Positions 17,590 to 40,030 of a stretch of DNA of 64,000 nucleotides are shown here, in pieces. The number at the start of each line of letters is the position of its first letter. Position 1 is the first letter of the stretch. The position numbers and the translations under genes were made by a program. The stretch is from Prosthecobacter dejongeii. GTDB lineage: Bacteria > Verrucomicrobiota > Verrucomicrobiia > Verrucomicrobiales > Verrucomicrobiaceae. Location of the stretch: the NCBI RefSeq assembly GCF_014203045.1, contig NZ_JACHIF010000001.1:310001-374000 (forward strand), written 5' to 3'. Under the pieces are notes generated by a model. The model ran no database searches. It was given only the letters and a program-made list of their open reading frames with translations, and was not told where the DNA came from.

Positions 17590-18453
17590 TCAATGCGTCA
17601 GCGCGTAGAACACGATGTTGATGCCCAACGGGTAGGCATACTTCTCGGAAAACTCACGGAAGTACCACGGATCTGTCCCCTCCTCTTCCCAGCCATCGCC
17701 CAGGTCCGTGTTATGGCAGATCATCATGACGATGCGTTTCTTATCATCAAAGATGGCCCGGTAATGCGGGGTCTGCGCATCAAAACGCTCCGCCGTGATA
17801 CCTTGCGAACGTCCCGCCATGGCATGACCCACGCTAGGAATTTGCGGCTTCACCTTCAGTGGAAAAACCATGTGAAACACCTCATGCTCCAGCGGCAGCT
17901 CCTGCGGTTCACGGTCGGGAAATATCTGCTTCAAAGCGACGTAAAAGGTGTCCCACTCCTCCTCCCCCCAAAAGTCATCCACCATGATGAAGCCACCATT
18001 CAGCATGTACTCCCGCATCACTTTGGCATCACCATCGGTTAGGCTGATGTGCCCTGGCTCGATCATGTAGATGAACGGGTAGTGGCGCATCTGCTCCGCA
18101 TCAATGTCCACCACGGCTCCTTTGGGGCTTACTTGCAGAGAGGTGAGCTGCTGCAACCGGTAGCTGAAGTTCAGATCCGCATCGGGGTAATCCGTGGTCC
18201 ATTTGCCACCACCACGCCTGCGCCCCCAGCTTTCCGAATTATACCGCAGCCGAGCAAAGGTGAACACGTCGTTCGGCAATTCCTTGCTCACTGGCCAAGT
18301 GGGGAAGTCCAGAAACTGCCCGCCGCGCCCGGCTTCCCGCGGATCTTCCGGCACTGAGCCATCTTTGATCCCAAAGTTGGTTGGCGAAGGTGCATCTTCC
18401 GCCAGGCAAAACCCCAGCGCAGCGAGAGCAAAAAAGGCAGGTAGGAGTTTCAT
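17590..18453 (-). CDS. Secreted DUF4159-domain protein
   Basis: 287 residues with a signal peptide (MKLLPAFFALAALGFCLA, cut near AED). The remainder matches the DUF4159 family as I know it: FTFARLRYNSESWGRR, DYPDADLNFSYRLQQLTSLQV, the YPFIYMIEPGH segment, then MREYMLNGGFIMVDDFWGEEEW and a C-terminal YPLGINIVFYALTH. DUF4159 proteins are common in Verrucomicrobiota and Planctomycetota, often near DUF58/MoxR-type genes, and have a flavodoxin- or ThuA-like fold. The function is unknown. Here it stands alone, 88 nt downstream of a leftward hydrolase gene, so co-transcription is possible. Confidence 0.85.
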   Translation of the reverse strand: MKLLPAFFALAALGFCLAEDAPSPTNFGIKDGSVPEDPREAGRGGQFLDFPTWPVSKELPNDVFTFARLRYNSESWGRRRGGGKWTTDYPDADLNFSYRLQQLTSLQVSPKGAVVDIDAEQMRHYPFIYMIEPGHISLTDGDAKVMREYMLNGGFIMVDDFWGEEEWDTFYVALKQIFPDREPQELPLEHEVFHMVFPLKVKPQIPSVGHAMAGRSQGITAERFDAQTPHYRAIFDDKKRIVMMICHNTDLGDGWEEEGTDPWYFREFSEKYAYPLGINIVFYALTH

Positions 18454-18541: not shown

Positions 18542-19621
18542 TCAGGGTTTGCCCAGCACCTTCTCGATCACCCCATACGATTCATATCTCTCGTCATCGG
18601 GAAAATCATGGTCACAATCGGGGTGGCGGATGATCATACCTTCCTCTGCGCCATGTAGCTTATAAACAGCCTCAGCAGCAGCGGCGATGCGGTCCACGCT
18701 GTCCCACTTGAAGTTAGAATCTTTCAGCGGCGCGTTCACATAAAGGGCGCGTGGGGCCAGACAGGCGATGAGTTCATAGTAATCAAACGGCACGTCCTGC
18801 GGCCGCCCCAGGTAGTCTCCCATCTTTAGAATGTAACGCTCCTGCACCCAGCCCTTGATATTGCCATCTTTGTAATCCAGCACGGAATCAAACCCGCAAC
18901 TGGACACCACGGCCTTCAGCCGAGGTTCTAACACGGCGGTGAAGATGCTGTTATGCCCACCCAAAGAATGGCCGATGGTGGCGAAACCGGCGTCCTTTTT
19001 CACAAACGGCATTGTCTCCAGCAGATCCAGCCCGCGAATGTTGTCCCAAATCGCCTTCATCGTGCCGCTGGTGAATCCCAAAGCCTTCAAATCCGGCTGA
19101 TACTGTGCCAGCAGGGGATAGCTGGGAGCCAAAGTCACATACCCACGTTCCGCCAGCTCCGCCGCATACTGCCGGTGGGGCTTGCCCCCGAGACCTACGA
19201 CCACCTTGTGCCCGATGACGTTTTCCGTGGGGTGTAGGCAGAGCACGGCAGGTGCGGGTTTGCCCATCAGCGCTGCCTTGGGAATGCACAGGTACGCAGG
19301 CACCCGGCCCCCTGGGGAGGAGGCATAGCTGATCAGCCGCCGCACATAGCTGCCACAGTCCACTTCCTCCTCCACACGCAGGTCCAGCGGGCAGCGCATC
19401 ACTTCTCCGGGCAGGGGGCCTGTCATGCTCAAAAAAGCTGCCACTGCGGCTTTCCGGCGCACTTCCCACTCGGCCACCGTCGTCGCTGTCTTCAGCTTTC
19501 CCGCCTCATCCCGATATTCGAGCAAATGGGTTCGGCTCAGGCCTCGGAGTGCTGGAATCTCTGCGGCCTTCAGCCCTACCACACTCACCATCAGCAAAAG
19601 CTGGAGACAGACTTTCTTCAT
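18542..19621 (-). CDS. Secreted alpha/beta hydrolase, acetylxylan-esterase-like
   Basis: 359 residues with a signal peptide (MKKVCLQLLLMVSVVGLKAA). The catalytic region shows a GHSLGGHNS nucleophile elbow (Ser at the GxSxG site), preceded by PAVLCLHPTE (oxyanion region) and GYVTLAPSYPLL. A late DCDHDFPDD segment probably carries the catalytic Asp or His. This is the layout of the dienelactone hydrolase / acetylxylan esterase group found in polysaccharide-degrading Verrucomicrobiota. The exact substrate cannot be told. It is divergent from the DCC gene at 19745 and may be co-transcribed with the DUF4159 gene. Confidence 0.82.
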   Translation of the reverse strand: MKKVCLQLLLMVSVVGLKAAEIPALRGLSRTHLLEYRDEAGKLKTATTVAEWEVRRKAAVAAFLSMTGPLPGEVMRCPLDLRVEEEVDCGSYVRRLISYASSPGGRVPAYLCIPKAALMGKPAPAVLCLHPTENVIGHKVVVGLGGKPHRQYAAELAERGYVTLAPSYPLLAQYQPDLKALGFTSGTMKAIWDNIRGLDLLETMPFVKKDAGFATIGHSLGGHNSIFTAVLEPRLKAVVSSCGFDSVLDYKDGNIKGWVQERYILKMGDYLGRPQDVPFDYYELIACLAPRALYVNAPLKDSNFKWDSVDRIAAAAEAVYKLHGAEEGMIIRHPDCDHDFPDDERYESYGVIEKVLGKP

Positions 19622-20801: not shown

Positions 20802-22508
20802 TCAGATCGTCAGGTCAACAAAATCCAAGTTCGTGCCGGGGCCAAAACGGGATAAGTTGGGGAACACCGCATCAATCTGAGCCGGAGGCACACCTACCCA
20901 TTCAGCGATCTTAGCCGCATACTGGTCCACCGAGGTGCTGGGGATCCAGCGGCCACGGGAGCCGGTGCAGTCAATGCCGCCATCCACCTCTAGGAGCGGG
21001 AAGGTGCCATAGATTTTTTTGCCTTTCACTGCCCCCCCCATCACCATCATGTGGCCTCCCCAGCCGTGGTCGGAACCGCCGGTGGAATCTGTTTTGTTAG
21101 GCGTGAAGGTGCGGGTAAAGTCTGAGGCCGTGAAGCCCATGACCGCATTCCACAATGCCAGTCCTCCACGCGGGTGCCCTACGATTGAGTCATAGAATCC
21201 TTTGATGGAGCGGCTCAGCACGTTTAGAAGCGCGAACTGGCCCACTCCAGTATTGACGGTGTTGTTGCCATTGATCGCGATCTGCGAAGCATGAGTATCA
21301 TACCCACCTTGCTGGATGAAGAAGGTCTGGCGATTATTTGCCGGTTTACCATCTTGCAGCAGGGCGTAGTTACCGATGATCAGCCGTGCCACCATTTTTA
21401 GCTGGTTTGCAAAGTCCGTATTCGCTGAGTTCGCATTGCCACCAAAGGCTGCGGTGAAGTAGGCATCCAGGGTGGGGCCCACGGTGCCATTGGTGTAAGC
21501 GAGGGTATCTGCGACGACCCCTTCAGTCACTCGGGCAGTTTTCGCGGTGTTTTGGTAGGAGGCATCGAAGAGATTGGCGTGATTCATCGCCATGAGCTTT
21601 TCCAGTGCTTTCAGCCGCCACCCCTGGCCCGTAGCTTTATAATTGGTGCTGGTCAGAGGATCGTAACCATTGGCACCTGGCAAGAAGGGTTTCAAAGTCA
21701 CATTCGTGAGAGCATCGGCATAACCAACGTTGCTTGGTCCATAACCATCGAAGTCCAGCGCCCCTGCGGTGCTCATCACAAAAGGCTGCTCACTCGTCCC
21801 AACCTGGAAGCTGTTTACCCCGGCGATGGAAACGCCCATGGCAAGTCCCGCCGAGTTCGTGTTGCTCGCCGCGTCCAAGAGATCCGCAATGCGCCCACCC
21901 CAGCCGCTGGTGAAGGGTTGATCTGCGATGGAAGACTGCCATTGCAGCACCTGGTCTGCATGCGAGAAGAGTTGGGGTGGTTTGGTGGGAGCTAAAGCCG
22001 CAAAATTCGCCCGCGTTACCCCAGGTTGTGTGAGCGTGCCCACATTGGTCACGAAGGCGAGGTCCTGGGAATCGAAAAGAGACTTTAAGCCCTCACAGGC
22101 AGGATGGATGGCGAGGTCATTATTGGTATAACCTGCACCGGGGTCATAAGCACCCGGGTTATCTGGCGTGATGGCGGTGAGACCTAACTCTGCATTTGGC
22201 ACAGCCAAGCCACCTGTCCCGCCGGCGTAAGTGGGAATACCCCGATAAAGCTCATAATGAGAGCGTGCAGCGCTGGCCCCGCGAGGAATCAGCATGTTAT
22301 TGGAATCATTGCCACCTCCTTGGAAAATGCACACCAAGGCTTTGAAGTCATTCGGCCCACCGGCAGCAGCGGCAGAACCGACAAGCTGGAGTTGAGACAA
22401 GGTATTCACCATGCTGGTGATCCCCAAAGTAGCACAGGAGCTCTGCACCAGGAAATCACGACGGTTAGGCTTACTCCGATCAAGGGTCTTGCGAAAAGAG
22501 AGATTCAT
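20802..22508 (-). CDS. DUF1501-domain protein with Tat-type signal
   Basis: 568 residues. The N terminus SKPNRRDFLVQSSCATLGITSM has a twin-arginine (RRDFL) motif, so export is probably by the Tat pathway. The protein follows the DUF1501 pattern: LVCIFQGGGNDSNNMLIP, AIHPACEGLKSLFDSQDLAFVTNVG and a C-terminal TGGSDHGWGGHMMVMGG with metal-ligand-like His and Asp residues, reminiscent of the alkaline phosphatase/sulfatase superfamily. DUF1501 genes are usually paired with DUF1800 genes in Verrucomicrobiota and Planctomycetota, as here, where the DUF1800 gene is 41 bp upstream in the same orientation. Biological role not established. Confidence 0.88.
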   Translation of the reverse strand: MNLSFRKTLDRSKPNRRDFLVQSSCATLGITSMVNTLSQLQLVGSAAAAGGPNDFKALVCIFQGGGNDSNNMLIPRGASAARSHYELYRGIPTYAGGTGGLAVPNAELGLTAITPDNPGAYDPGAGYTNNDLAIHPACEGLKSLFDSQDLAFVTNVGTLTQPGVTRANFAALAPTKPPQLFSHADQVLQWQSSIADQPFTSGWGGRIADLLDAASNTNSAGLAMGVSIAGVNSFQVGTSEQPFVMSTAGALDFDGYGPSNVGYADALTNVTLKPFLPGANGYDPLTSTNYKATGQGWRLKALEKLMAMNHANLFDASYQNTAKTARVTEGVVADTLAYTNGTVGPTLDAYFTAAFGGNANSANTDFANQLKMVARLIIGNYALLQDGKPANNRQTFFIQQGGYDTHASQIAINGNNTVNTGVGQFALLNVLSRSIKGFYDSIVGHPRGGLALWNAVMGFTASDFTRTFTPNKTDSTGGSDHGWGGHMMVMGGAVKGKKIYGTFPLLEVDGGIDCTGSRGRWIPSTSVDQYAAKIAEWVGVPPAQIDAVFPNLSRFGPGTNLDFVDLTI

Positions 22509-22549: not shown

Positions 22550-25500
22550 TCAGTGTGAGGTGACAGCCGAGGGTGAAATGGACATGAGATAGGCAGCGAA
22601 GCGGCAGCGGTCGCGCACCTCATTGTTAAAGTTGGTGACATCCGTGGAAAGGCGCGTCAGGCTGTAGCTGTTGTAGATGCCATCAATGATGACCTGCCGC
22701 GGATTATCCGTTAGCGAGGCTCCATCTGGCCACTTGGCCTTGAAGCGCCCACCGCCCCAGTAGAGATCCAGCTTATCAATCACGGCTTTCGATCCAGCCA
22801 AGTGCCCCGCAGGCGCGGTCGTCGTTGACTCAGGAGTGGCTCCACGGGCGGCCGTATAAGCCGCCGTGTAGATGCCTGTGAGCTCTGACCAATCAAAGAG
22901 CAGGTTATCCTTCTGCTGATTACTGCCAGTGGCATTGCTAGCGAAGTAACCAAACTCAAAAGCGAGGTTGGCATTTGGACGAGCATGTTTCTCCGTGATG
23001 ATGGTCACTGTAACCGGTGCTGTAGGAGCACTGGAAAGACGAATGGTGTAGGTGATGCCATCGCCTTCCTGCACATCCGTGCCATTCTGAGTAATGATAA
23101 GGCTACCAGTCGCATCGTTGTCATTGATGGTGACCGTCAGTGTGCCCACTCCGGTGACTGCGTAACCACCAGCAGCATTAGGCGTGCAGGTGAGCACCGC
23201 TGTCTGCGGAGGTGCCTCCAGCGTCGTGTCATCCACCGCCGTCAAGGTCAAGATCTGAGGCTGATTCCAGTTCGCTGTGGTGAAGCTCAACGTGGCCGGT
23301 GAGCAAGTGGCCTGACCCGCAGCCACAGTAGGCGTCACAATGACGGTGGCTGTTGGAGGTTTTCTCAAGAAGACATAAACGGTGTCTGAATTCCCAACGG
23401 AACCTTCATTCACCGTCGTGCCAGAACCCGTGGGGATGATACCGACGGTGGCGGATGTTTCATTGGCATCCGTGATGATGGCGTTGACGCTTGGCACGGA
23501 GTAGAACTGGTAGTTCAGATCTGTGGACGCGATCTTGTGCCCGATGAAGACGGCGCGGTTGGAGTTATTCGTCGCGCTCGTCGCCAGATTCACCGTCACA
23601 GTTTGCGGAGTGCTCCAGTTCGCATCGGTGAAGGTGATAGCGGCTGGGGAGAAGGTCACCAAGTTCGCACCACCGATGGCGTTGTTAGCCTGTGGGGTGA
23701 TGGTCACATTTCCCTGCGGTTTAGAACCCAGCACGATGGTGTAGGTATCTGAAGGCTGGCTATTTTCTGCCAACCAGGTGTAACCACCACTCTCCGTCAC
23801 ATTCACCAAGGCCGTGCCAAACACATCGTTATCACCAATCAACACCGCACCCGTTGTGGCGGTATCTGTCACACGATAACCCCCTGTGCTGCTGGCCACA
23901 TAGTTGATGGTCGAGTTATGGGCATTTTCAATATCCGTGTCATCCACGGCTGTCACCGTGACTGTTTGTGGCTGGCTCCAGTTCGCAGGTGTGAAGACCA
24001 GATTCGTCGCGGAGAGACTGAGCTGCGTTGGGTTGTAGAAGCAGGACAAGGTCACATCTGCCGATGGAGCGCGGCGGAGCACGACGGTGTAGGTATCTGT
24101 GCCACCGGCCTCGACGACGCGTGTATTGCCGCCGGATTGGACGATTGAAATCAGCGCACGAGCCAGATCATCACTGTCCAGGATACGGACAGGCTGAGTG
24201 GTGGTGAGGCTGGCGTAACCGGCAGGGCTGCTGGCCAGAGTCGTCGCATTCAGTGTGTCTGCATGCACCCCCTCACTGCCAGTATCCGCCGTGGAAATGA
24301 GGGTGACCGTTTGAGCGGTGGTGTAGTTCGCTGGGGTAAAAGTCAGCGTGGTCGTATCGAAGAGATTTCCATTCACACGATAGCGGAACTGGGTGCCAGC
24401 GCGGCCCAGATTCACCGTGACATCTGCCGGAGGAACTGGACCTGCCAGTGCGATGTTCACCGTATCTGTTCCAGCATCTTCCAGCACCAGCGTGGAATTG
24501 TCCGTTTGAGTGATGACGATGCGCCCGGTGGTATCATTGTCATTCACCGTGACGTTCACATCGGCTGCCACCATGCCATTGTAGCGTGCATCCGTGCCAG
24601 CGATGATCGTGGTGGAATTCACAATGGCGAGATCCAGCGCAGCCTCAGCAGCGGTGCTATCCACCGCTGTGACGGTGATGGTGGCCGTGCGATTCCAGGC
24701 GGTGCCACCAGAGGTGGCGCTCGTGAAATCTACCGAAGTCGGATTGAAGGTCACCTGGGCGGTTCCATTCGCCGCATTCAATAACCAGGCGGCAGGGGTC
24801 ACGCGCACAGTGGCTCCGCTGAGAGGTGCGGCTCCCAAGGTGATGTTATAGGTAAAGGTGCTGCCACCTTCCGTCACACTGCCCGAGGTGGGAGTCACAT
24901 TCACCGAAGGCTGAAGAGACTCGTTGTCGCCCACTGCAACGGTAACCGTCGAGAAATCCTGGATGACGTAACCTCCCGTAGCACTGGCGGTGTAGGTCAA
25001 TACGGTGGAATGAGCACTTTCCACGGCAGCATCCTCGACAGCAGTGATGGTCACTGTTTGGGGTACAAACCAATTGTTAGGCGTGAACGTCAGCGCACCA
25101 GTGGACAAGATCACTTGATTAGCGACCGAAAGCGTGGGTGTCAGCGTCACATCGGCCGAAGGTGCTCTTCTGAGAGCCACTTCGATGGTATCGGTCATGC
25201 CGCTTTCATGCACACGGGTGGCTCCATTGGTTTGGAGGATCTGCACCACGCCTGCACCGCTATTGATGTCATCATTATCAAAGACATTCGCGACGACGGT
25301 CGAACTCAGGCTCACAAAACCCGCAGGCTGGCTGGCATTTGTGGAAGCGGTGATCGTATCCACCCCATTGGCCTCTGCCGTGGCATCATTGACGGCAGTG
25401 ACGGTGACGGATTGGGCCGTGGTCCAGTTCGCTGGGGTAAAGGTCAGCGTATTCGGAGTGAAGCTGGTCTGGCCTGTGGAGGCAAGATTCACCACCACAT

Positions 25501-28500
25501 TGGCACCAGGTGCAGCCGGTCCACTGAGGCTCACATTGATGATATCCGTAGCTGCGCCTTCTGTGACAGTGGTAGAACCAGCCGTCTCTGCGAGGACAAT
25601 GCGCGAGCCATTATCGTTATCGGTCACAGCCACACTCACGTCTGATATCACAAAGGTATTGTACCGAGAATCCGTGCTGGTCACCGCAAAGGCAAGAGCT
25701 GCGGTCTGGGCACCTTCAGTCACGGTATCATCCGTAGCCGTCACGGTCACCGTTTGGGCGGTATCCCAGTTCGCTGGATTGAAGGTGAGCGTGGAATTCG
25801 AAAGGCTGAGTTGCCCAGCCGGGGTCGCTGTCATGGCCACTACCACGTCATTGTTAGGCGCCCCTGTGAGTTTCACGGTGAAGCTATCCGTAGCACCACC
25901 TTCGCTCACCGCAGTGGTTCCAGAGCTTTGGACGAGTTGGATGCCCGCAGAGGAATTGATGTCGTTATCACCCACATTGGCATTGAGGGTGGCCACATTG
26001 CTGTAGCCGCCTCCACTAGCGGTGTATTTGATTTCGCTGATGTGGGTAGATTCTACACTCAGATCATCTGTGCCAGATACGGTGATGGTCTGTGGCACCC
26101 ACCAATTCGCCGTGGTGAAGGTAAGATTCCCAATCCCTGCAACATCGCCGTTGTTACCACTCCAGGTAAGCGTGACTGTATTTGTGGGGGCTTTGTTGAG
26201 CACCACAAAGTAGGTATCTGTCAGACCTCCTTCCACCACATTCGTGCTTCCCCAGGTCTGGGTGATGGAGATTCCATTGTTAGCAGCACTGTCATTGTCA
26301 TTCACACGCACATCCATCGGTGCGCATGGTAGGGCATTGTAAGTGGCATCTGTGCTGGCTGTGGAGTGAGTGATCTGAGTGAACTGAACACCTTCAAAAT
26401 TCACATCATCCACCGCGCTGATGGTGACAGTTTTATTACCTGTGTAAGTGCTACCGTTAAAGGTCAGCGTCGCCACGCCAGCCGAAGGTTTCAGCAACGT
26501 AGAATCGGTGGAGGTGATATCCACGATGTTAGGATCGTAGGTGAAAGTGACCGTCACATTGGCCGTCGGGGCAGTGCCGCTGGCAAAAGCCACGGTGTAG
26601 GTATCCGTGGTGCTACCCTCCGTCACGACAGCGACTCCTGTGGTGCTTGCTTTGGTAGGGATGAACCGACGGCCCACATCATTATCCGTGACGGCGCAGT
26701 TGAAGTCAGAAACCTGGAGACCGTTGTAGGCAGCGTCCCCGCTGGTGATGGCGTGGCACACAGTCGCTACTCGTGTATTGAGAGGTGCAGAGCCTGCCAA
26801 GAAGCTGTTTACCACGGTATCATTGTTAGCCGTCAGGGTGATGACCTGAGGGGTATTCCAGTTGGTAGTATTGAAGGTCACCGAAGCAGGAGAGAAAGTG
26901 ACATCTGCGCTCGCAGCAGGAGCTGAAGCGACTTGGATGGCACTGACTGCATTTGGCGTCACGGTCACGGTTTGGCCCGCAGCGGGAGGAGCTGACAGCA
27001 TGACGGTGTAAGTGTCCGTCGCGCCACCTTCCACCACTGTGCTGCTACCGCCGCTCTGGCTGATGGCTACCAATTTGGCCGTTGTCGTGTCATTGTCTGA
27101 GACTGTGAAATTGATAGGCGGAGTGTAGTTGCCTGCAAAGTTCACGTCTGCACTCGCCATCGTATGCAGAATGGAAGTGGGCCGGGTGCCATCGGCACCT
27201 TGATTTTCAAGTCCTCGAACCGTCACGCTCTGGGGAATATTCCAGTTGGTAGAGTCAAAGGTAAGAGTCGTCACACTGGTCTGCACCTGCGCAGCCGTGT
27301 TGGCTGAATTGGTAACGAAATCATCAAGGCCAAATCCAGGGAAGGCACCCGTTAACCCCATCCAGGTAAGGGCATAGTGGCGGTTCACACGATTCACCAG
27401 ATTACTTTCTGTATTGATCTGAAGCTCTGGACCAAACAGGCCCGCATTGGCCATAGGGCCTGGCTGCACGTAGTCCGGTAGGAACCAGTTAAACACGCTC
27501 GGTGCTTTCTGAGGCGATTGGCCGATGGCGCCGGTCTGGTCATTCAAACGAATGCGTGTGGCACCTGGAATGAAAGCAGCAGCCTCCGAAGCGGGGTAAG
27601 ACGTCACCATCGGGCTATCGGCACCGCTGAAAGGCAGCTTCATGTTCACCAGATTGGAAAGAGGCGCGTTGCTGTATGCCTTCAAGGTGCGGAACAGGGA
27701 CGCGTATTGGATCAGCGGCTCTTTGAGCTTACCTGCCCCCACCAGGCTATCTGCCACCGCCAGCGAACGGGCTTCATAGTCCAGTAAGATGGCTTTCAGG
27801 ACTTCGCCCAGATTGCCATTGGAACTGCGATAAACTTCGCTCACGCGATACAGGTAACCGGGGCTCGGGTTGGAAGTTGTAAGACGCTGGATGAGCAGCC
27901 GGGAGATGAACACCGGGGTGTTCTGATGGCCATTGTAAGACCCTGCATTCGGATCACCCGCCAGCGCATTGTGAGCCAGACGAAGATCTTCATCTGCCAG
28001 AGGATGCGTCTGCACATCCGATAAGCCCAAGGTATTGACCAAAGGCAATTGAGTTTCCCCTTCCTTACCCGCAAAGAGCACTTTTGAGACGGTGGATGAA
28101 ACTTCGCCGAGCGAGTTTACATAAGGATTAAAGTCATGGTAGTTGATGCCATTGACACGGCCCAGTGCCTTCATCGGGTAGATCCATGAAGCTTGATACC
28201 AAGTCTCCCCGCCACCGATGCCGAAGTCGGTAAAGTTCACGCCCTGAAACTCGATCTGCGGGCTAGCGCTCACACTGGATGGCACCAGCACATTTCCTTG
28301 AGAGCTGTTGCGCCGGACCGTGATGGCCGCATGGCGTGCGCCATAGGTCAGCCCGGTTAAGACACGTGCCAGTTCTGTGATATCCGTCTGATCATACGTG
28401 GGAATCGGCAGACCATTTTGACCAAGAACTAGGCTGCCATCTGGATGGCGCAGCACCAGGCCAACCGTGAAAAGCTGCATGATTTCACGCGCGTAGTTTT

Positions 28501-31500
28501 CGTCTGGAGAGATCTCAACACCACCGCTGGTGTAGCGTGCGCGATTGCGCAGGTGGCTGAGGTAAACCCCCATCATGGGGCTGTAAGTCACCTTTTCGAG
28601 AAGATCCCGGTATTTGCCGAAAGCCCCCTGAGCCAGCATGTCCCAGTAATTTGCCGCCCCGTAATGACGAGCACCAACGGTGCTGTCATTTTCTGAAATC
28701 ACGACGATTTCCTGAAGAGCTGCTGCCATGCGCTGGCGCACTTGAGCCTTGGACTGAAGCACCATGGTCCACCACTCGCGGCGGCGATTGGCGCTATTTT
28801 GAGGTGAGTTAAAACTGAACGCGTTGTTCGTACTGTTATTGTAAGGGTTCGTCAGATTGCCGTAGCTATCATAACTGGCGGCGAAGCCAGAGCTGGCAAA
28901 CTGAGGATCATTACCAGCCTGGATCGGCTTGGCACCGCGCATGGCGAATTCTTCATTGTCTGCCGACATGACCAAGGTCAAAAAGCTAGGAGAAGGAGTC
29001 GTGCTTGGGTCCATCTGCTTATTCAACCAATTGGTATAACCAAGAATGAGATTCGCAGCGGTGCAGCCATCGCTCAAAGTTCCATCCACCAATTCGATCT
29101 CTGCTTTCACCTCATTGTAAGAGGAAGAATTGGCACCAAAAGTACACTGGTCCAGGAAGCGATAGATATCCCGCTCAGCCTCAGTGGCGGTCAGACTTCC
29201 TGGCAAAGCAGGTTCATCCAAGTCGGGACGATCTGGATCAAAATCTTCTGATCCCTGAGCGGCATTGAAGAAGCCAAAGATTTCCCCAGCGGTGTAGTTC
29301 ACCGTATTGATATCCACGTAAATACGACCTGCATTCAGCGCATCCAGCATGGCTTGATCGGTGGTCTCAGAAGCCGCCGCACGGATGAGCCAAGTGACGT
29401 TATTGATCTGCCCGACACCTAAGTTGTTACGAATATCCTGGTCATTGTTGATGCGCAGGTAGGTGGTGTTTTGTGGAGAACTGAGGCCGCTCACGTTCAC
29501 ACTAGTTTTGGCGTCATTGTTATCCCCTTCCAAAAGAGCTACAGCCACACCAGAGCCGGTGGAGACAACCCCCGTGCCGCGTGAAAGATAGGCCACATAC
29601 ATGGTGCGGTTATTGATATTGGAAGGATCCGCATCACAAATACGCACATAAGTAGGATAGGTGACCACCGCTGGATTCACCCCCGAAGGCACGGGTCCGA
29701 AAGTCACTTTCAGGTTCTCTGGCACTTCCACCGAGGCATCTTGAACAGGATTCACATTCACCACATAAGGGCTACCGGTGAGCCCCTGGCCCGCTGGCAA
29801 CAGTAGGTTCCCCCCACTCACACCTGAAAGGGAATAGTCGGCGGCAATGGCATTTCCCTTGGTGATGTCGGTGCTACCCGCCTCACCGGTGACGCGCAAA
29901 TTTAACTGCATGGTGCCATAGCTGCGGCTGAGCTGAATTACTGCGGGTGAAGAAACGAGGGTGGAGGCTTTTTTATCCACCGTTTCATAAGCCGTCGGCG
30001 CGGTTACCGTCGCCGTGAGAGAGTAGAGACTCTGAAGAGTGTCCCAATCTGAAGCAGTGCCGCCTGAAGCATTGGCCGGACTGGTGGCCAAACTAGGATT
30101 AGTGCCCATCTGTGTTTCAATGGCATCAGAAACGCCATCCCCATCAGCATCCGCTTCCTGCTGGACGACCAGCCAAGCACCGTTTTCAGCCGCGTGCACG
30201 TTGTCAGCAGCAGGTGAGGCATCTTCATCTGCCACTAAATTCACCCCCGCAGCATTCAACTGACCACGCCGGACCACGATGGGGTCAAGATCACTGGCCA
30301 AACCTGTTTCATAATACCCTTCCACCTGGAAGCTCGCCTCTGCGGTGCCCTGCGCAGCTGCGAATAAAGCAGGCCCTGCATACTTAGAGCCGAAAGTAGT
30401 CGCCGATGTAACTGAACTCAAAGTGCCGATGCCCGTTGCAAAACGGAAGTTATTATTGGAGCTCATGAACTGCCCCGTACCGCCAGGCATGACAATGAAA
30501 TGAACAGTTTCTCCTGCGTGGGTTTGATCTGCATTTTCAGCTTCCGTGAGACGCACGCGGAAATTCACGGGCCAGAAGTAAAGTGTGTCCACGCTATCCA
30601 CGCGGGCCGTCACCGCACTGGCTTCATTCACGGTCACGCACTGGGCAAACACGGCCGGTTCACGCTCGTAGTAGATATCACTGGCCCAGTAGTTATCACT
30701 CAGATATTGAACCGTCCCAGCATTCGTGACTCCAGCCACCCCACCTGCCTGCACGACCTGCCCACCGATGGCGAACACTCCCGCTTCCATCACCGTGTAG
30801 CTAGCCGTCTCCGCAGCATGCACACCATCGGCAAAGTCCCATTCATCCAATTGATATTCAAAGCTGGCCTTGTTTCCATTCGCAGGATCCACCGCCAAGA
30901 CATTGCGCACACGGATGCCTGCTGGTGTTGCATCATTTTTGGTTAGGGGACCAAAGACCACCACGGGCGAAGTGTAAGCACTGGCAAGATTCACCTTAAA
31001 CCACTGAGTGGGTGATGACTGGTTGATATTCACACTGCCAAAAACCAGCTTCGCGGCGCTTTCCCCCGGCATGTCCCCCACAAACACACCCGCCACCGTT
31101 TCTGTCGCATGCGTCAGATTGGAGTTAGACGAAGTTTCCTCCTGAAAGGAGAACTGAACACGGGTAGAGCCATTCGAAAGAATCGGCAGGCTACTCATCC
31201 GCAGATCACCTGGCTCCGTGTCATTTTTTGTCTGCGTTTGCGCCACGACCACAGGATTGGTGAAAGGGCCTGTGTAAAAAGTTTTGATCGCATTCCCCAC
31301 GGTGCCGGGGCTGTAAGACCACAGTACTTTACCATCCAGATAACCAATGCCTTCCGAGACGGCGATGTAACCAATGCCTTCATTTGAAATCGCGGTCGTG
31401 TAATTCTGCTGAGTCTCCAGGTTCACCACAAACCCACTGGACGTTACGGCTGAATTACGGGTCTTTAAGGCGCGCGGATTGTTCGCTGCAATCACGTTGA

Positions 31501-32035
31501 CCGTTGTTTCTACCTGCGTTAGCACCATCGGCGCATTGATAAATCCTGTCAAAGGCACGGTCGTATTGGCGCGGTTAACCGCAGCCACGCGGCCCACCTG
31601 CCAGCGCTGGGTGCCGAACACATGCGTGCCAGGCGTCATGGCAAAGAAATGCACCGTAATGGAACCAGGATGCGCACCTGTGAGGTAGTCCCATTCATCA
31701 ATCTGCCATTGAAAACCCGTGGCCGTGACATTGCGTACTCGCACCGTATGAGGGTGTGTATCCACACTGTGGGCAGGCCCCATGATCACCACAGGAATGA
31801 TGCCATTAAAATTGCGTGTAAAGGTCACCGTCTGCCACGTGGTCGAAGTCGCCTGCCCCCCAGACAGTGTCACCACACCGGATTCAAAGTTCACTTTTAC
31901 CGGAGCCTGAGCCTGAGCCCACTGAGCTGCGCCCAATAAAAACAAGGCAGTTAACAAGAAGTTCTTTACCGAGGAGGTTCTGAGAAGCGCCTTCCAGGTC
32001 CGACATAATGAAGATGCGAGCAGTGGTGAATTCAT
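22550..32035 (-). CDS. Giant secreted DUF1800 protein split by Calx-beta-like repeats
   Basis: 3161 residues with a signal peptide near residues 25-43 (FLLTALFLLGAAQWAQA). In order: three or four H-type-lectin-like beta modules (to about 620; FxSG...QWQIDEWDY motifs); a calcium-loop DADGDGVSDAIE; a Calx-beta-like module; a CHRD-like domain (about 830-940); DUF1800 N-terminal part from about 945 (RDIYRFLDQCTFGAN, NYAREIMQLFTVGL, FNWFLPDYVQPGP) to about 1570; an array of about twelve repeats (about 1573-3015); and the DUF1800 end (LDLYWGGGRFKAK, RDRCRFAAYLMSISP) to 3161. The repeats carry EGGATDTYTV, LTFTPxNWxxPQTVTVTAVDD and DND motifs. Probably a cell-surface or matrix protein acting with DUF1501. 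Confidence 0.85.
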   Translation of the reverse strand: MNSPLLASSLCRTWKALLRTSSVKNFLLTALFLLGAAQWAQAQAPVKVNFESGVVTLSGGQATSTTWQTVTFTRNFNGIIPVVIMGPAHSVDTHPHTVRVRNVTATGFQWQIDEWDYLTGAHPGSITVHFFAMTPGTHVFGTQRWQVGRVAAVNRANTTVPLTGFINAPMVLTQVETTVNVIAANNPRALKTRNSAVTSSGFVVNLETQQNYTTAISNEGIGYIAVSEGIGYLDGKVLWSYSPGTVGNAIKTFYTGPFTNPVVVAQTQTKNDTEPGDLRMSSLPILSNGSTRVQFSFQEETSSNSNLTHATETVAGVFVGDMPGESAAKLVFGSVNINQSSPTQWFKVNLASAYTSPVVVFGPLTKNDATPAGIRVRNVLAVDPANGNKASFEYQLDEWDFADGVHAAETASYTVMEAGVFAIGGQVVQAGGVAGVTNAGTVQYLSDNYWASDIYYEREPAVFAQCVTVNEASAVTARVDSVDTLYFWPVNFRVRLTEAENADQTHAGETVHFIVMPGGTGQFMSSNNNFRFATGIGTLSSVTSATTFGSKYAGPALFAAAQGTAEASFQVEGYYETGLASDLDPIVVRRGQLNAAGVNLVADEDASPAADNVHAAENGAWLVVQQEADADGDGVSDAIETQMGTNPSLATSPANASGGTASDWDTLQSLYSLTATVTAPTAYETVDKKASTLVSSPAVIQLSRSYGTMQLNLRVTGEAGSTDITKGNAIAADYSLSGVSGGNLLLPAGQGLTGSPYVVNVNPVQDASVEVPENLKVTFGPVPSGVNPAVVTYPTYVRICDADPSNINNRTMYVAYLSRGTGVVSTGSGVAVALLEGDNNDAKTSVNVSGLSSPQNTTYLRINNDQDIRNNLGVGQINNVTWLIRAAASETTDQAMLDALNAGRIYVDINTVNYTAGEIFGFFNAAQGSEDFDPDRPDLDEPALPGSLTATEAERDIYRFLDQCTFGANSSSYNEVKAEIELVDGTLSDGCTAANLILGYTNWLNKQMDPSTTPSPSFLTLVMSADNEEFAMRGAKPIQAGNDPQFASSGFAASYDSYGNLTNPYNNSTNNAFSFNSPQNSANRRREWWTMVLQSKAQVRQRMAAALQEIVVISENDSTVGARHYGAANYWDMLAQGAFGKYRDLLEKVTYSPMMGVYLSHLRNRARYTSGGVEISPDENYAREIMQLFTVGLVLRHPDGSLVLGQNGLPIPTYDQTDITELARVLTGLTYGARHAAITVRRNSSQGNVLVPSSVSASPQIEFQGVNFTDFGIGGGETWYQASWIYPMKALGRVNGINYHDFNPYVNSLGEVSSTVSKVLFAGKEGETQLPLVNTLGLSDVQTHPLADEDLRLAHNALAGDPNAGSYNGHQNTPVFISRLLIQRLTTSNPSPGYLYRVSEVYRSSNGNLGEVLKAILLDYEARSLAVADSLVGAGKLKEPLIQYASLFRTLKAYSNAPLSNLVNMKLPFSGADSPMVTSYPASEAAAFIPGATRIRLNDQTGAIGQSPQKAPSVFNWFLPDYVQPGPMANAGLFGPELQINTESNLVNRVNRHYALTWMGLTGAFPGFGLDDFVTNSANTAAQVQTSVTTLTFDSTNWNIPQSVTVRGLENQGADGTRPTSILHTMASADVNFAGNYTPPINFTVSDNDTTTAKLVAISQSGGSSTVVEGGATDTYTVMLSAPPAAGQTVTVTPNAVSAIQVASAPAASADVTFSPASVTFNTTNWNTPQVITLTANNDTVVNSFLAGSAPLNTRVATVCHAITSGDAAYNGLQVSDFNCAVTDNDVGRRFIPTKASTTGVAVVTEGSTTDTYTVAFASGTAPTANVTVTFTYDPNIVDITSTDSTLLKPSAGVATLTFNGSTYTGNKTVTISAVDDVNFEGVQFTQITHSTASTDATYNALPCAPMDVRVNDNDSAANNGISITQTWGSTNVVEGGLTDTYFVVLNKAPTNTVTLTWSGNNGDVAGIGNLTFTTANWWVPQTITVSGTDDLSVESTHISEIKYTASGGGYSNVATLNANVGDNDINSSAGIQLVQSSGTTAVSEGGATDSFTVKLTGAPNNDVVVAMTATPAGQLSLSNSTLTFNPANWDTAQTVTVTATDDTVTEGAQTAALAFAVTSTDSRYNTFVISDVSVAVTDNDNGSRIVLAETAGSTTVTEGAATDIINVSLSGPAAPGANVVVNLASTGQTSFTPNTLTFTPANWTTAQSVTVTAVNDATAEANGVDTITASTNASQPAGFVSLSSTVVANVFDNDDINSGAGVVQILQTNGATRVHESGMTDTIEVALRRAPSADVTLTPTLSVANQVILSTGALTFTPNNWFVPQTVTITAVEDAAVESAHSTVLTYTASATGGYVIQDFSTVTVAVGDNESLQPSVNVTPTSGSVTEGGSTFTYNITLGAAPLSGATVRVTPAAWLLNAANGTAQVTFNPTSVDFTSATSGGTAWNRTATITVTAVDSTAAEAALDLAIVNSTTIIAGTDARYNGMVAADVNVTVNDNDTTGRIVITQTDNSTLVLEDAGTDTVNIALAGPVPPADVTVNLGRAGTQFRYRVNGNLFDTTTLTFTPANYTTAQTVTLISTADTGSEGVHADTLNATTLASSPAGYASLTTTQPVRILDSDDLARALISIVQSGGNTRVVEAGGTDTYTVVLRRAPSADVTLSCFYNPTQLSLSATNLVFTPANWSQPQTVTVTAVDDTDIENAHNSTINYVASSTGGYRVTDTATTGAVLIGDNDVFGTALVNVTESGGYTWLAENSQPSDTYTIVLGSKPQGNVTITPQANNAIGGANLVTFSPAAITFTDANWSTPQTVTVNLATSATNNSNRAVFIGHKIASTDLNYQFYSVPSVNAIITDANETSATVGIIPTGSGTTVNEGSVGNSDTVYVFLRKPPTATVIVTPTVAAGQATCSPATLSFTTANWNQPQILTLTAVDDTTLEAPPQTAVLTCTPNAAGGYAVTGVGTLTVTINDNDATGSLIITQNGTDVQEGDGITYTIRLSSAPTAPVTVTIITEKHARPNANLAFEFGYFASNATGSNQQKDNLLFDWSELTGIYTAAYTAARGATPESTTTAPAGHLAGSKAVIDKLDLYWGGGRFKAKWPDGASLTDNPRQVIIDGIYNSYSLTRLSTDVTNFNNEVRDRCRFAAYLMSISPSAVTSH
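22990..27315 (-). repeat. Array of Calx-beta-like coding repeats
   Basis: About eleven complete units of about 110-130 codons plus a half unit at each end. Each unit has a first half with a [S/T]xxVxEGxxTDTYTVxL motif and a second half with LTFTPxNWxxPQTVTVTAxDD and a closing DND. The first unit starts in its second half and the last ends in its first half, so the set is permuted relative to a whole unit. The units differ enough in DNA sequence that recent tandem duplication is not obvious. Confidence 0.8.
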
Positions 32036-35360: not shown

Positions 35361-35974
35361 ACCGGCTACCGACACTCTTCCTCTGGGTGCTGGCCCTCTG
35401 CCTGCCACAGCTACAGGCACAGACAGCGAAAGCTAAAAGTAAGCCTTCTTCGCCGACGCGGGCGCCCCTTTTTATGGGCAGCGAGAAAGCCTCCTGGTTG
35501 CCAAAGACGGAGCTGTTGCCCAAAGGTGAAAGCATCGAAGCCCAGGCTCAAAAGTTAAGTTCACGGCTGCGGAATATGGACCCCTTCGGTCTTTCGACTT
35601 TCCCACGTGAAGATGATGCACCCGTCATCGAAGAAGACATCTACCGCAGCACTCCAAAAATCACGCTTAATCAAGCCCTACAAACTCTGAAGATCAATGG
35701 GGTGAATCTACAGCGGAGGGAGTTCCTCATCGGAGGTCGTCAGGCGGGTGAGGGTGATGTCATCGAACTCGTCTATAAAAGCGAAATTTTCCAAGCCCAG
35801 GTCATCGAAGTCAGTGCCACTCAGCTACTTTTCAGAGATCTCAAACGGGATGAGACCGGCGTGCTCAAACATGACGTCATTCCTCAGTTGGCCATCGAGC
35901 CGCTGCAAAAGATCGCTTCCCAGTTCGAGAGCCGCATGACTCCCGTGGAACCTGCACCTCCCGCCAAACCATGA
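35357..35974 (+). CDS. PilP/GspC-like periplasmic protein
   Basis: 205 residues with a signal peptide (LFLWVLALCLPQLQAQ). A Pro/Ser/Lys-rich linker precedes a C-terminal beta domain (residues about 95-190, for example TLKINGVNLQRREFLIGGRQAGEGDVIELVYKSEIF) that resembles the PilP/GspC homology region, which binds the secretin and links inner and outer membrane parts. No lipobox cysteine is present, unlike classical PilP. It overlaps the upstream PilO-like gene and the downstream secretin by 4 nt each, so translation is coupled. Assignment rests on context. Confidence 0.6.
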   Translation: MNRLPTLFLWVLALCLPQLQAQTAKAKSKPSSPTRAPLFMGSEKASWLPKTELLPKGESIEAQAQKLSSRLRNMDPFGLSTFPREDDAPVIEEDIYRSTPKITLNQALQTLKINGVNLQRREFLIGGRQAGEGDVIELVYKSEIFQAQVIEVSATQLLFRDLKRDETGVLKHDVIPQLAIEPLQKIASQFESRMTPVEPAPPAKP

Positions 35975-37719
35975 ACACTCGCCGTCTCAGTTTCCTGTCT
36001 CTGCTCTGTCTCAGCCTGAGCGCGAATGCGCAGCAGGAATCGGTTCCTCAGCCCCTGCAAACACTACCTGTAGGAGCCGTGGATCTTTCCGCACGCCTCG
36101 GTGGCCTATCCAGCCTGCCTGCGCAGCCAGAAGACGGCTACTGGATTGATAACGCCCCCATCAATGAAGTCTTCCAATACCTCTCGCGCAGCGCGGGGCT
36201 GCAATTCTTCCACAACAACGACCTCAATACCCCGCAGTACAATGTCACGGGCCATCTCAAGCTGGATGATCCCCGTCAGCAAATGGAAGACCTAGCCGTC
36301 GCACACGGCCTCTTTGTTTATCAGCAGCGCTCTTCCATCAGCCTCATGACGGAACCTCAACTGGCCAAACTGCCCGTAGAAGTCATGAGTTATCAGCTCA
36401 AATATCTGCGTGGAGCGCCTTTAAACCGCAGCATGTCTGCCCAAGCATCCAGCGGAGCGGGTGGCGGGGAAGAAGGTAGCAGCAGTAGCGAAAGCTCATC
36501 GGGCCCCACCTCCGACTTTGAAAAACTCAAAGCCATCATCAAACCGATGCTCACCCGTGAGGTGGGTCAAATCGAGTTCGAAGAAAAAACCAACACGCTT
36601 TTGATTAGCGATAACACCATCAAACTGGAGCGTGTGCGTAAACTGTTGGAAGAGATTGATAAAGCCAAGCCGCAGATCATGGTCAATGTGCGCGTCCTCC
36701 GCATTCGCCGCAATCAAGGCCGTAACGTCGGCGTGGACTGGAGTCGTTCTCTCGGAGAAGACGGCACCAGCATTACCATTTCCCAGAGCCTCAATGCCCT
36801 CTTTAATCTGCCGGATATTAGCCGACTGACCCGAACCGGAGATCCGGATAATCTGAGTAGCAGCCTCAACCAAGTGAATACTGAAGGCGCAGGCCTGGTC
36901 TTTAGCAACGTTCAGGTCGAAGCGATTTTACGCGCCTTGCAAGGAGCCGACTTAGTCACCCAAGAAGCCTGCCCCACCATCATCACGGAAGATAATGAGC
37001 AAGGACTCATTTCCATTGTGGATCGCTTCCCCATCATCACCTCCGATATCAGCAACACTGCGGCGGGCCAAAACATCACGGATAAAGTGCGGTACAAAAT
37101 CGACAGTGAAGACCCCAGTGCTACGCAAGAGCCCGAAAAGAATCGCGAGATCGGCGTGACCCTTTCCGTCACCCCGACTCTGCTGCCAGATGGTACCGTG
37201 CGTATGAAACTGCGCCCACGAGTGGCTAAAATCGTGGAGCTCATTCCTGGCCGAACCAACAATTTGTTTCCCCGCGTCAGCGAATCCACAGTGGAGGCCA
37301 TCAGCCGAATCCCAGCGGGTCAATCCTTATTCCTTGGCGGCTTTTACGATTACAGCAATAGCGAAGGCAATAACAAGGTTCCAGTCCTGGGCACCATCCC
37401 GCTGGTGGGGAAACTCTTCAGTTCCGACATGAAAAAACTGGAGCAGGTGAGCCTCGTCTTTGTCATCACTCCACGCGTTTATGATGCCTCCGACATTGCG
37501 GCTATCCCAGAGATGAATTGGCACACACGCGAATACTCCGGAATGCAGCCGGAAGACCTTGGTGAAGCCTCCGTCCTGCTACCCAAGTCTGACTGGCCGA
37601 ATGCCACGCCAAGTAGCAAAAGCCCAGATTTCCCACCTGAAGCTCCCACTGTTCGCGTCACCCCCAAGTCCTCCTGGGTGAAGCGGCTCTTTGGCAAAAA
37701 AGACGACACCACGCCCTAA
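35971..37719 (+). CDS. pilQ: Secretin PilQ/GspD
   Basis: 582 residues, an outer-membrane secretin forming the pilus exit channel. The signal peptide ends near ALSANAQQ. N-terminal N-domains occupy residues about 60-230, with an NAPINEVFQYLSRSAGLQF segment and an NxxLxxL-type TNTLLISDNTIKLERVRKLLEEIDKAKPQI. A Ser/Gly-rich loop (GGGEEGSSSSESSSGP) interrupts them. The C-terminal secretin domain ends with the hallmark KVPVLGTIPLVGKLFSSDM and VFVITPRVYD. It sits in the expected place after PilM, PilN, PilO and PilP. About 80 residues after the secretin core form a Pro-rich basic tail not usual for the family. Confidence 0.92.
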   Translation: MNTRRLSFLSLLCLSLSANAQQESVPQPLQTLPVGAVDLSARLGGLSSLPAQPEDGYWIDNAPINEVFQYLSRSAGLQFFHNNDLNTPQYNVTGHLKLDDPRQQMEDLAVAHGLFVYQQRSSISLMTEPQLAKLPVEVMSYQLKYLRGAPLNRSMSAQASSGAGGGEEGSSSSESSSGPTSDFEKLKAIIKPMLTREVGQIEFEEKTNTLLISDNTIKLERVRKLLEEIDKAKPQIMVNVRVLRIRRNQGRNVGVDWSRSLGEDGTSITISQSLNALFNLPDISRLTRTGDPDNLSSSLNQVNTEGAGLVFSNVQVEAILRALQGADLVTQEACPTIITEDNEQGLISIVDRFPIITSDISNTAAGQNITDKVRYKIDSEDPSATQEPEKNREIGVTLSVTPTLLPDGTVRMKLRPRVAKIVELIPGRTNNLFPRVSESTVEAISRIPAGQSLFLGGFYDYSNSEGNNKVPVLGTIPLVGKLFSSDMKKLEQVSLVFVITPRVYDASDIAAIPEMNWHTREYSGMQPEDLGEASVLLPKSDWPNATPSSKSPDFPPEAPTVRVTPKSSWVKRLFGKKDDTTP

Positions 37720-37754
37720 TCCGCAGAGTCTAAAAGCCCCCTTTGATTTCTGAC

Positions 37755-38339
37755 ATGACTGAATCCATCACCGGCTTTCCACTTCCAGCTAAGACGGACC
37801 GCCTCAGTCTGCAGCCCGTGTTGGAGCGCATCGCCCAAACGACGGTCAAGCACCTGCGGCAGGGAGGATATGTCTCAGAGGCTGAAGCAGCCCCCTGGAT
37901 CCCGGCTTACCTCACGGCCCTGAATTCCGCCCACCCTCCGGCAGATTTTCTCACTTACGTGGCGGACGTTCAGGCTCAAAAACATTCCTTAACCCAGGAA
38001 GGAGAAGTCATCCGCATGCAAAAGCTGCTGCGCAATTGCCTGAATGATCGCGTGCATTACTGGAGCTTTGGCCCCCTACCCGGTAGAGCTACCGCACTGT
38101 ATGATCACTGCTCTGGCCTACGGCCTGTTTGCGCAGCCCTGGGCTGTCCCGCGACTCTCGCTGGGGAGACGAGCATCGTCCACATCGGCTCTATCAATCC
38201 TGTATCTGCACTCGTCGCCTCCTTCTGGATCAGCCATGAGCTGAACCGGGAAACGGATGGTGACGCCCCGTTTGTATTCTCCTTCCTCATGGACCTGCCC
38301 GCGTGGCAGATCCTCATGCAAAATCACTTTGCCGCATGA
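37755..38339 (+). CDS. Conserved-position protein of unknown function in pilus operon
   Basis: 194 residues from the ATG 37755 (an earlier in-frame TTG exists at 37743). No signal peptide or membrane segment is visible. It is mixed alpha/beta with a WIPAYLTALNSAHPPADFLTYVADVQ stretch and a GPLPGRATALYDHCSGLRPVCAALGCPA segment containing three cysteines. It overlaps pilB by 4 nt, so the two are translationally coupled. A cytoplasmic accessory or regulator of the PilB ATPase is a fair inference from context only. Confidence 0.7.
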   Translation: MTESITGFPLPAKTDRLSLQPVLERIAQTTVKHLRQGGYVSEAEAAPWIPAYLTALNSAHPPADFLTYVADVQAQKHSLTQEGEVIRMQKLLRNCLNDRVHYWSFGPLPGRATALYDHCSGLRPVCAALGCPATLAGETSIVHIGSINPVSALVASFWISHELNRETDGDAPFVFSFLMDLPAWQILMQNHFAA

Positions 38340-40027
38340 ACCTGAATCTCGGCATCGAATTCAATGACACCATCCAGCGGCTCATCATCAGCCAGTTGCG
38401 TGCTGCCACAGCGGGGAATGAAACCCTTTCGGATGAAGCCATGGTGCGCAAATGCTCCAAGACGCGCATCCTAGGTGCCGTTGGTCGTGCCTCAGGGCTC
38501 CCGGCATTTCCTCAGATCCGCGAAATGGCAGATGCAGAGTTCGTCGGTTATTGTGACCCCGTCGTCCTTGCCCGTGGCATGTTCGTGCCACTGCGCCGCA
38601 GCTCTCAGCAAATTTTGTTAGCCGTCGCCAATCCCTGGGACTACCGGGCCGATGACTACTGCGCTAGCCGCTTTCCTGAAGATGAACTTTTAAAAGTCGT
38701 CACGTTAGCTTCGGAGGTCTCAGCCGTCATCGAAGGCTCCTCCAACTCATCTGGCCCGAGTCGGGCAGAACTTGAGGCGGTGGAAGTCGAAGAGTTTTCC
38801 AATGAGAGCCCTGACTTTGATGTCACTCGCCTCTATGACGAGCCTATCGCTCAGCTCGTGGCCAGCATGGTCAGTGATGCCATCAAGCAGCATGCCTCAG
38901 ACATCCACATCAAGACGGAAAAGACCAGTTTTCAGTACTGTTTCCGAGTGGATGGAGATTTAGGAGCCCGAGTCGAAATGCCTGTGAAACTGCGGGATCG
39001 CGTGGACGCCTTTTTGCTCAACTTGATGCGTCTCGCCCCAGAGGAGCGCAGCAAACGACCCGGCATCTCGGGGCGCTTCACCGCCAGTTATTATGGGCGT
39101 GCTGTGGGGGTGCGTTATGAGCGGCACCGCACTTACCGCGGTTACCATGTGACCATGCGCTTGCTCGATAAGACGCATCTCGAAGCACGTCTCGGCATGG
39201 GCACACTTGCCTTTGATGAAGATACTTTGTTTGAGCTCGACAAGGCCATGGCCGTTCCTTCCGGCATCATCGTCATGTCTGGCCCCACAGGCTCTGGGAA
39301 ATCCACCACGCTCAATGCCATGCTGCGTGAGTTAAACCACCCCGAAGATAACATCCTCACCCTAGAGAACCCGGTGGAAGATGAGATCCCTGGCGTCACT
39401 CACTGTGACTTGCGCGATTCCTCCGAGTTCAAACCCATGATCGCCAGTTTCATGCGGTCAGACCCCGATGTCATTCTCATGGGCGAGGTGCGCGACCGTG
39501 AATCCGCCGAGCTCGCAATCGAGGCCGCCATCACCGGCCACAAAGTACTCACCACGATTCACACGCCCCGAGCCTCGCAGATCATTGAGCGTTTTCAGCA
39601 GCTCGGCATGGAGCGGTGGAAAATCGCCCAGACGCTCAAAGCGGCCTGCGCCCAGCGTCTAGTGAAGCTGCTATGCCCCGCCTGCCGAGAGAAGCGTGAG
39701 GGCATCCCAGAACGCGAAATCCGCCTATTTCATCTGGATCCAGCCTGGGCTCAGCGCCCAGTGTTTGTGCACCGAAAAGAAGGCTGTCCCGAATGCAAAG
39801 GCCGTGGTTATGCAGGCCGTACCGCCATCTTGGAGATCCTGCCCATCAGCCCCAAGATCGGTGACAAACTGGCCAAGGGTGAGATTACCCCTTTTGAACT
39901 GGAGCAGGAAGTCCGCCGTGAATCTGGCCTGCCTTCTCTGCGGGACAATGGGCTAAAACTCATGGCCGAAGGCAAAACGGACCTCGATGCACTGAAGAAG
40001 GTGCTGGACCTCACTTATGAATCCTAA
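38336..40027 (+). CDS. pilB: Pilus extension ATPase PilB/GspE
   Basis: 563 residues from the ATG 38336. The N-terminal domain (to about 180) resembles the GspE_N/MshEN region. Residues about 190-520 are the AAA secretion ATPase with ASDIHIKTEK, Walker A GPTGSGKSTTLN, Walker B DPDVILMGEVRDRESAELAIEAA and the His box HTPRASQIIERF. A zinc-binding tetracysteine module (CPACREKREG and CPECKGRGYAGRTAI) is diagnostic of PilB/GspE and rules out PilT. It powers pilin extrusion together with the PilC protein that follows. A partner retraction ATPase lies at 44424-45578. Confidence 0.94.
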   Translation: MNLNLGIEFNDTIQRLIISQLRAATAGNETLSDEAMVRKCSKTRILGAVGRASGLPAFPQIREMADAEFVGYCDPVVLARGMFVPLRRSSQQILLAVANPWDYRADDYCASRFPEDELLKVVTLASEVSAVIEGSSNSSGPSRAELEAVEVEEFSNESPDFDVTRLYDEPIAQLVASMVSDAIKQHASDIHIKTEKTSFQYCFRVDGDLGARVEMPVKLRDRVDAFLLNLMRLAPEERSKRPGISGRFTASYYGRAVGVRYERHRTYRGYHVTMRLLDKTHLEARLGMGTLAFDEDTLFELDKAMAVPSGIIVMSGPTGSGKSTTLNAMLRELNHPEDNILTLENPVEDEIPGVTHCDLRDSSEFKPMIASFMRSDPDVILMGEVRDRESAELAIEAAITGHKVLTTIHTPRASQIIERFQQLGMERWKIAQTLKAACAQRLVKLLCPACREKREGIPEREIRLFHLDPAWAQRPVFVHRKEGCPECKGRGYAGRTAILEILPISPKIGDKLAKGEITPFELEQEVRRESGLPSLRDNGLKLMAEGKTDLDALKKVLDLTYES

Positions 40028-40030
40028 GCC

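Follow-up and report, generated by a model that had tools for sequence, protein, structure and literature searches.

How can a folded domain carry a very long repeat array within its own chain, and why does that array start and stop in the middle of a repeat unit? The question is raised by a 3161-residue protein encoded in the window, the stretch of 64,000 nucleotides of Prosthecobacter dejongeii DNA analysed here (contig NZ_JACHIF010000001.1, positions 310,001 to 374,000). The DUF1800 domain of this protein is interrupted by a repeat array, which confirms an observation of the earlier note on this DNA. Our main reading, to which we assign a probability of roughly 0.65, is that DUF1800 gained the array in a single insertion and that the array is permuted and closes on itself. 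The N-terminus of the protein, judged by eye, resembles a signal peptide. Lectin-like modules and a CHRD domain had been proposed to precede DUF1800, and Pfam finds both an H_lectin match and CHRD there. The features of the locus are as follows.

22550–32035, minus strand: whole gene, 3161 amino acids in one open frame (extent as in the earlier note)
31688–31834, minus strand: H_lectin match, residues 68–116, the best of two stretches (Pfam)
30095–30151, minus strand: TSP3-like match, residues 629–647, below the Pfam cut-off
29273–29572, minus strand: CHRD domain, residues 822–921 (Pfam)
27299–29197, minus strand: DUF1800 core, residues 947–1579, HMM match extending to 1588 (Pfam and insert-free HMM)
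27089–27298, minus strand: array start, a C-terminal Ig-like half unit with strands D–G (residues 1580–1649)
26678–27088, minus strand: complete unit 1
26291–26677, minus strand: complete unit 2
25961–26290, minus strand: complete unit 3
25613–25960, minus strand: complete unit 4
25268–25612, minus strand: complete unit 5
24920–25267, minus strand: complete unit 6
24533–24919, minus strand: complete unit 7
24167–24532, minus strand: complete unit 8
23825–24166, minus strand: complete unit 9
23462–23824, minus strand: complete unit 10
23114–23461, minus strand: complete unit 11
22997–23113, minus strand: array end, an N-terminal Ig-like half unit with strands A, A', B and C (residues 2975–3013)
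22553–22996, minus strand: DUF1800 C-terminal part, residues 3014–3161, HMM match 3034–3159 (insert-free HMM)
20802–22508, minus strand: DUF1501 gene, the downstream partner (Pfam)

The two parts of DUF1800 lie on either side of the array. The Pfam match (PF08811, cut-off 26.1 bits) begins at residue 960 and scores 204.2 bits, or 210.4 bits for the core alone. In a genome search the family hits the frame in two pieces, positions 2–205 and 238–375 of 419, with no match in this frame beyond position 375. The missing end is present and displaced by the array, as revealed by an HMM of 642 positions built from 30 insert-free relatives. Residues 947–1588 correspond to positions 9–526 of this HMM and residues 3034–3159 to positions 515–640 (59.2 bits, E 3.5e-19). 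The core start near residue 945, the C-terminal end past the array and the location of the array inside DUF1800 are thus as the earlier note had them; the C-terminal segment is not foreign to DUF1800, and the repeats begin while the domain still lacks its end. The same HMM finds a core piece and a tail piece in 26 of 26 insert-bearing proteins, a set made up of 24 loci with both array ends, the window protein and its paralogue P12, with tail E values from 1.8e-19 to 2.1e-08; shuffled tails (40 per protein) reach at most 2.2 bits. The first piece stops at HMM position 504–526 in 22 of the 26 and runs up to 597 in L013, L015, L016, L017, L018 and L025, where the local alignment overruns into the array. 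The second piece starts at 503–518 in 24 of the 26, the same over-extension giving 491 in L013 and 434 in L017. When insert-free relatives are aligned with a 1128-residue insert-bearing relative (L018), the gap falls exactly at the array (the tail of L026, for example, is 29/79 identical). The split site is a variable linker in the C-terminal part of the domain, about 50 residues long in insert-free sister sequences, and probably forms a surface loop.

The array spans residues 1580–3013, about 1434 residues, and consists of a C-terminal half, 11 complete units and an N-terminal half. A genome search with an alignment of 116 positions, built from the window gene's own units so that distant copies may escape it, returned 18 matches: 13 in the window gene, four in one paralogue and one weak match elsewhere. 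The 13 comprise 11 that are near full length, one covering positions 41–116 at the start and one covering 5–46 at the end. The paralogue shows two near full-length matches flanked by 22–116 at the start and 3–46 at the end. The weak match (G000:C1:495843-496094) lies inside another long frame of 2038 amino acids.

The break is always at the same place. As the earlier note had read it for the window protein, the array opens in the second half of a unit and closes in the first half, and so it does in all 26 two-ended proteins. On a unit model of 128 positions, the first match starts at position 46–59 throughout, except at 31 in P12 and 35 in L018, where the alignment extends into the linker, and the last match ends at 49–62 in 26 of 26. 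Scored with an HMM from which terminal halves had been excluded, last halves have a median of 35.8 bits (23 pieces) and their internal equivalents 33.3 (203 pieces), while first halves reach 42.2 bits (23 pieces) and their internal counterparts 68.8 (208 pieces); shuffled half pieces score at most 9.4 and 13.5 bits. The domain pattern is thus kept in full by the last half and in part by the first. A first half has its best match in the terminal half of the other protein in 301 of 506 comparisons, and a last half does so in 228 of 506, both being raw counts without a null; for the window protein's own terminal halves the figures are 5/22 (first) and 8/22 (last). Judged from these matches, any orthology signal of the terminal halves would lie mostly within branches. 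A recent hypervariable tandem array was rejected as a candidate: no DNA-level tandem repeat was found in the array, and G013, a 3161-residue frame with a DUF1800 core 94% identical to that of the window protein, also has 11 complete units. In the arrays of L019, L020, L021 and L038, some internal units are broken by extra stretches of about 50–200 residues.

The units are predicted to be Ig-like sandwiches. An AlphaFold2 model of L018 (1128 residues, alignment of 45 rows) has a pLDDT of 79.9 and a pTM of 0.69 and contains a helical DUF1800 and two complete sandwiches at about 697–814 and 815–928 (VIA-align ranges). A fold search with this model, dominated by the Ig-like units (697–927) and barely probing DUF1800, matched PapD-type chaperones with Z up to 10.1 and the Calx-beta domains of NCX1/CALX with Z 8.0–9.2 (9iv8: Z 8.9, rmsd 3.6 over 109 residues). 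Other folds matched as well, and what the matches share is an Ig-like sandwich; NCX1 Calx-beta is among the good matches without being the best. The predicted structural domains match the unit boundaries, which marks the array ends as true half domains. By sequence, the Calx-beta family (PF03160) stays below its 27-bit cut-off: one of the 13 pieces hits, with E 0.0084, and sub-threshold scores are 19.0 bits in P12 and 17.8 bits in L018. Of the "about twelve Calx-beta-like repeats" noted earlier, the count therefore stands (11 complete units and two halves), while the assignment to Calx-beta by sequence does not. The array resembles Calx-beta arrays such as NCX1/CALX CBD12 in being a tandem of two-sheet Ig-like sandwiches with sub-threshold Pfam hits, and differs in that PapD-type chaperones match its units equally well or better.

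We propose that in an ancestor within the Verrucomicrobiaceae DUF1800 received such an array once, in the linker that precedes its last helices. The array is permuted, opening with strands D–G of one domain and closing with strands A–C of another, and we propose that the two terminal halves fold together into a single composite Ig-like domain on the surface of DUF1800. Such pairing would make the array a closed loop of n+1 domains (12 for the window protein, 3 for the paralogue) with no free-ended fibre. The loop would leave and re-enter DUF1800 at one spot, and core and tail would fold as one domain. The ends of a whole Ig-like array would lie far apart and be ill-suited to a surface loop. 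A break between strands C and D would bring both ends to one spot with DUF1800 still folding whole, so that permutation at this point would make the array graftable into a loop.

The L018 model bears on this proposed closure in a relative with two complete units, as distinct from the 12-domain loop of the window protein. Its last half forms strands A (935–939), A' (944–948), B (957–964) and C (972–978), with 10-residue block means of 76–90 over 931–980, and its first half forms strands D (635–639), E (648–654), F (664–674) and G (687–693). In a fragment that starts at complete unit 2 (808–1128, 29 rows), the last half loses A' and C, B is shortened and the means fall to 43–69 over 928–977; complete unit 2 keeps means of 68–95 and the tail helices are unchanged. 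The fragment is also without the DUF1800 core and unit 1, and values fall as well in the linker behind the last half, from 63–55 to 43–42, so part of the loss could stem from missing context in general. The two alignments differ (45 versus 29 rows), with 21 insert-bearing rows at the last half in the full model and 23 in the fragment. Strand pairing in Ig-like folds joins A' to G and C to F. Solely the first half supplies these partner strands, from which we infer that it is the counterpart of the last half. The composite domain is thus a prediction whose pairing partner is reached by elimination. The constant break, the half-domain pattern kept by the ends (in part by the first half) and the fragment control together argue for closure.

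Among the alternatives, the one that survives best, itself unlikely, is that the terminal halves are eroded ends, each packed separately on DUF1800, and form no composite domain. It would fit with the first halves scoring well below internal ones (42.2 versus 68.8 bits) and with the terminal halves never being adjacent in sequence. Against it, both halves are retained in 26 of 26 proteins with the break at one place, last halves are preserved like internal ones, and the last half is poorly predicted when only unit 2 and the DUF1800 tail accompany it. The next alternative, which we consider improbable, is an exchange between molecules of the kind found in donor-strand or domain-swapped polymers, in which one protein's first half completes the last half of another to yield fibres or a lattice; it comes closest to the surface fibre that the earlier note had suggested. 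The halves are complementary and conserved, the computed results are not specific to pairing within a chain, and a monomer prediction is equally compatible with pairing between two molecules. Pairing within the chain is favoured by both halves leaving one DUF1800 loop of one chain, and the monomer model, whose single chain includes the first half, shows the last half folded. That DUF1800 is complete ahead of the repeats and followed by a separate, foreign C-terminal domain has a negligible probability. The Pfam match does end at 375–377 of 419 in the window protein and P12 and misses the tail, but the insert-free HMM places that tail at 515–640 of its 642 positions, with an E value of 3.5e-19 for the window protein and of 2e-08 or lower in all 26. 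An assembly or annotation artefact is just as remote and was ruled out by the same architecture in at least 24 independently sequenced loci, in the paralogue from the same genome and in G013.

Six DUF1800 genes (seven matches) occur in the genome, and a DUF1501 gene lies behind every one of them. The paralogue P12 (G000:C1:200543-205378, 1611 aa) carries an insert of two complete units at the identical site, and the remaining four paralogues are without one. We sampled the best 80 of 575 relatives, giving 73 loci from public genomes; the array occurs in 28 of these 73 loci and both of its ends in 24, while L022, L027, L032 and L034 are insert-bearing loci that end before the array does and lie outside the set of 26. 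The loci include near copies (L015/L016, L026/L030 and L080/L081). The same architecture is present in L116, L117, L118, L119 and L120, which are two-unit or 11-unit relatives, and in L121 and L122; judged by length, L119 is the L018 locus, L121 is L041 and L122 is L035.

In a tree of 72 DUF1800 cores, built by a quick method with SH-aLRT and without bootstrap, one branch (SH-aLRT 99) separates the 28 insert-bearing from the 44 insert-free rows. Seven of 79 rows were omitted for truncation or shortness (L014, L043, L044, L055, L073, L074 and P8). Among the insert-free rows, L045 and a group that contains Verrucomicrobium sp. BvORR106 and BvORR034 lie nearest to the insert clade. Across 20 further genomes from the class, all of 26 DUF1800 matches stay within 1.7 kb. 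Given the single change in the tree and no long match among these other genomes, one gain inside the Verrucomicrobiaceae is the simplest reading for the sequences seen. Two insert-free DUF1800 frames (L044:8576-11353 and L055:8555-11203) stop before the conserved SVFN motif while the match continues, and in L055 the DUF1501 frame lies 1 kb past the shortened frame; frameshift, decay and sequencing error are candidate explanations.

Complete units number 2 (three proteins), 8 (11), 11 (10) or 14 (two, near copies) in the 26 proteins. These counts rest on merging by eye matches broken by inner insertions; automatic counts were 10 for L019 and L038 and 12 for L024, where we count 11. If the arrays are closed, 2, 8, 11 and 14 correspond to 3, 9, 12 and 15 domains, all multiples of three. 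Similarity between units (22997–27298 in the window) shows a period of three with p 0.007 in the window protein, 0.0045 in G013, 0.001 in L013 and 0.0005 in L015, these four being near relatives and the p values coming from 69 uncorrected tests. Units 3, 6 and 9 and units 5 and 8 are examples from the window branch. The period has p 0.016–0.08 in L038, L020, L021, L019 and L042 and is absent from L023, L025, L024 and all 11 eight-unit arrays (p 0.25–0.91). In three eight-unit arrays, the value for period 4 is lower than that for period three. We regard the triad periodicity as a lead; a covalently continuous closed ring, sealed by the split domain and growing only by triads, is a doubtful extension of it.

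Compared with known systems, the protein is like ordinary DUF1800 proteins (PF08811) with a DUF1501 (PF07394) partner in that core and tail both align and DUF1501 lies downstream, and unlike them in being split before the last helices by 340 to about 1800 residues. Split Ig-like domains are described in RTX adhesins such as Aeromonas hydrophila AhLap in the accessible part of PMC12077191, and split domains also in that of PMC10865825. RTX adhesins are likewise large exported repeat proteins with Ig-like halves far apart in sequence and something budding between them. In AhLap, according to the accessible text, one ligand-binding domain protrudes from a split Ig-like domain in a linear array (PMC12077191). 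In the window protein, by contrast, the array as a whole splits a host domain that is not Ig-like, and the complementary Ig-like halves stand at the array ends in permuted order, C-terminal half first, their contact being predicted. Pfam scans of the window protein returned no RTX family, and the protein terminates with the DUF1800 tail. Donor-strand complementation in pili and the "velcro" closure of beta-propellers also complete a sheet from a distant part of the chain or from another subunit. The likeness is an incomplete sheet completed from elsewhere; the difference is that here each array end gives half a domain, inside a host domain and apparently within one chain. In the cases known to us, tandem Ig-like arrays are linear. 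The literature searched yielded no inserted or permuted Calx-beta array, nor any case in which an entire array in permuted register splits a host domain.

If the closed permuted array holds, it would be a means of placing a very long array in a folded domain and leaving that domain undisturbed, because both ends leave one spot. Its sequence signature, a C-terminal half at the start and an N-terminal half at the end, could be looked for in other families. Short natural members with two complete units (about 1130 residues for DUF1800 plus loop) make the idea testable.

All 22 insert-bearing loci that leave room for a downstream gene have DUF1501 there, as do 40 of 42 testable insert-free loci. 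The DUF1501 protein of the window (20802–22508) has, by eye, a twin-arginine-like NRRDFL motif near its start, and this motif together with the signal-like N-terminus of its partner suggests that the pair is exported. Searches of Pfam, NCBIfam and PDB sequences gave no hints of a function for array and core. The accessible part of PMC5122149 places DUF1800 with DUF1501 in operons beside bacterial chitin synthases, and that of PMC4452313 notes the pair in PVC bacteria. Akkermansia is without the DUF1501 module in the portion available of PMC4960237, and neither DUF1800 nor DUF1501 was found in that of PMC5615132. We tentatively suggest that the exported protein might work with its DUF1501 neighbour on an extracellular polymer, the loop serving as a stiff spacer or display surface; it would then stand beside the lectin-like N-terminal modules. 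The finding also draws attention to DUF1800/DUF1501 as a widespread, probably exported pair that is seldom named in the literature searched. The six DUF1800–DUF1501 pairs of the genome (G000; L008, L009, L010, L011 and L012) differ in their N-terminal modules, which include a bare 501-residue form, TSP3, PA14/PKD/GLEYA/Ig, H_lectin with CHRD, and TSP3 with CHRD. Downstream of the DUF1501 gene lie genes for a DUF4159 protein (17590–18453) and an esterase-like protein (18542–19621), and upstream of the array-bearing gene are divergent Secretin, T2SSE and T2SSF genes (35971–41248).
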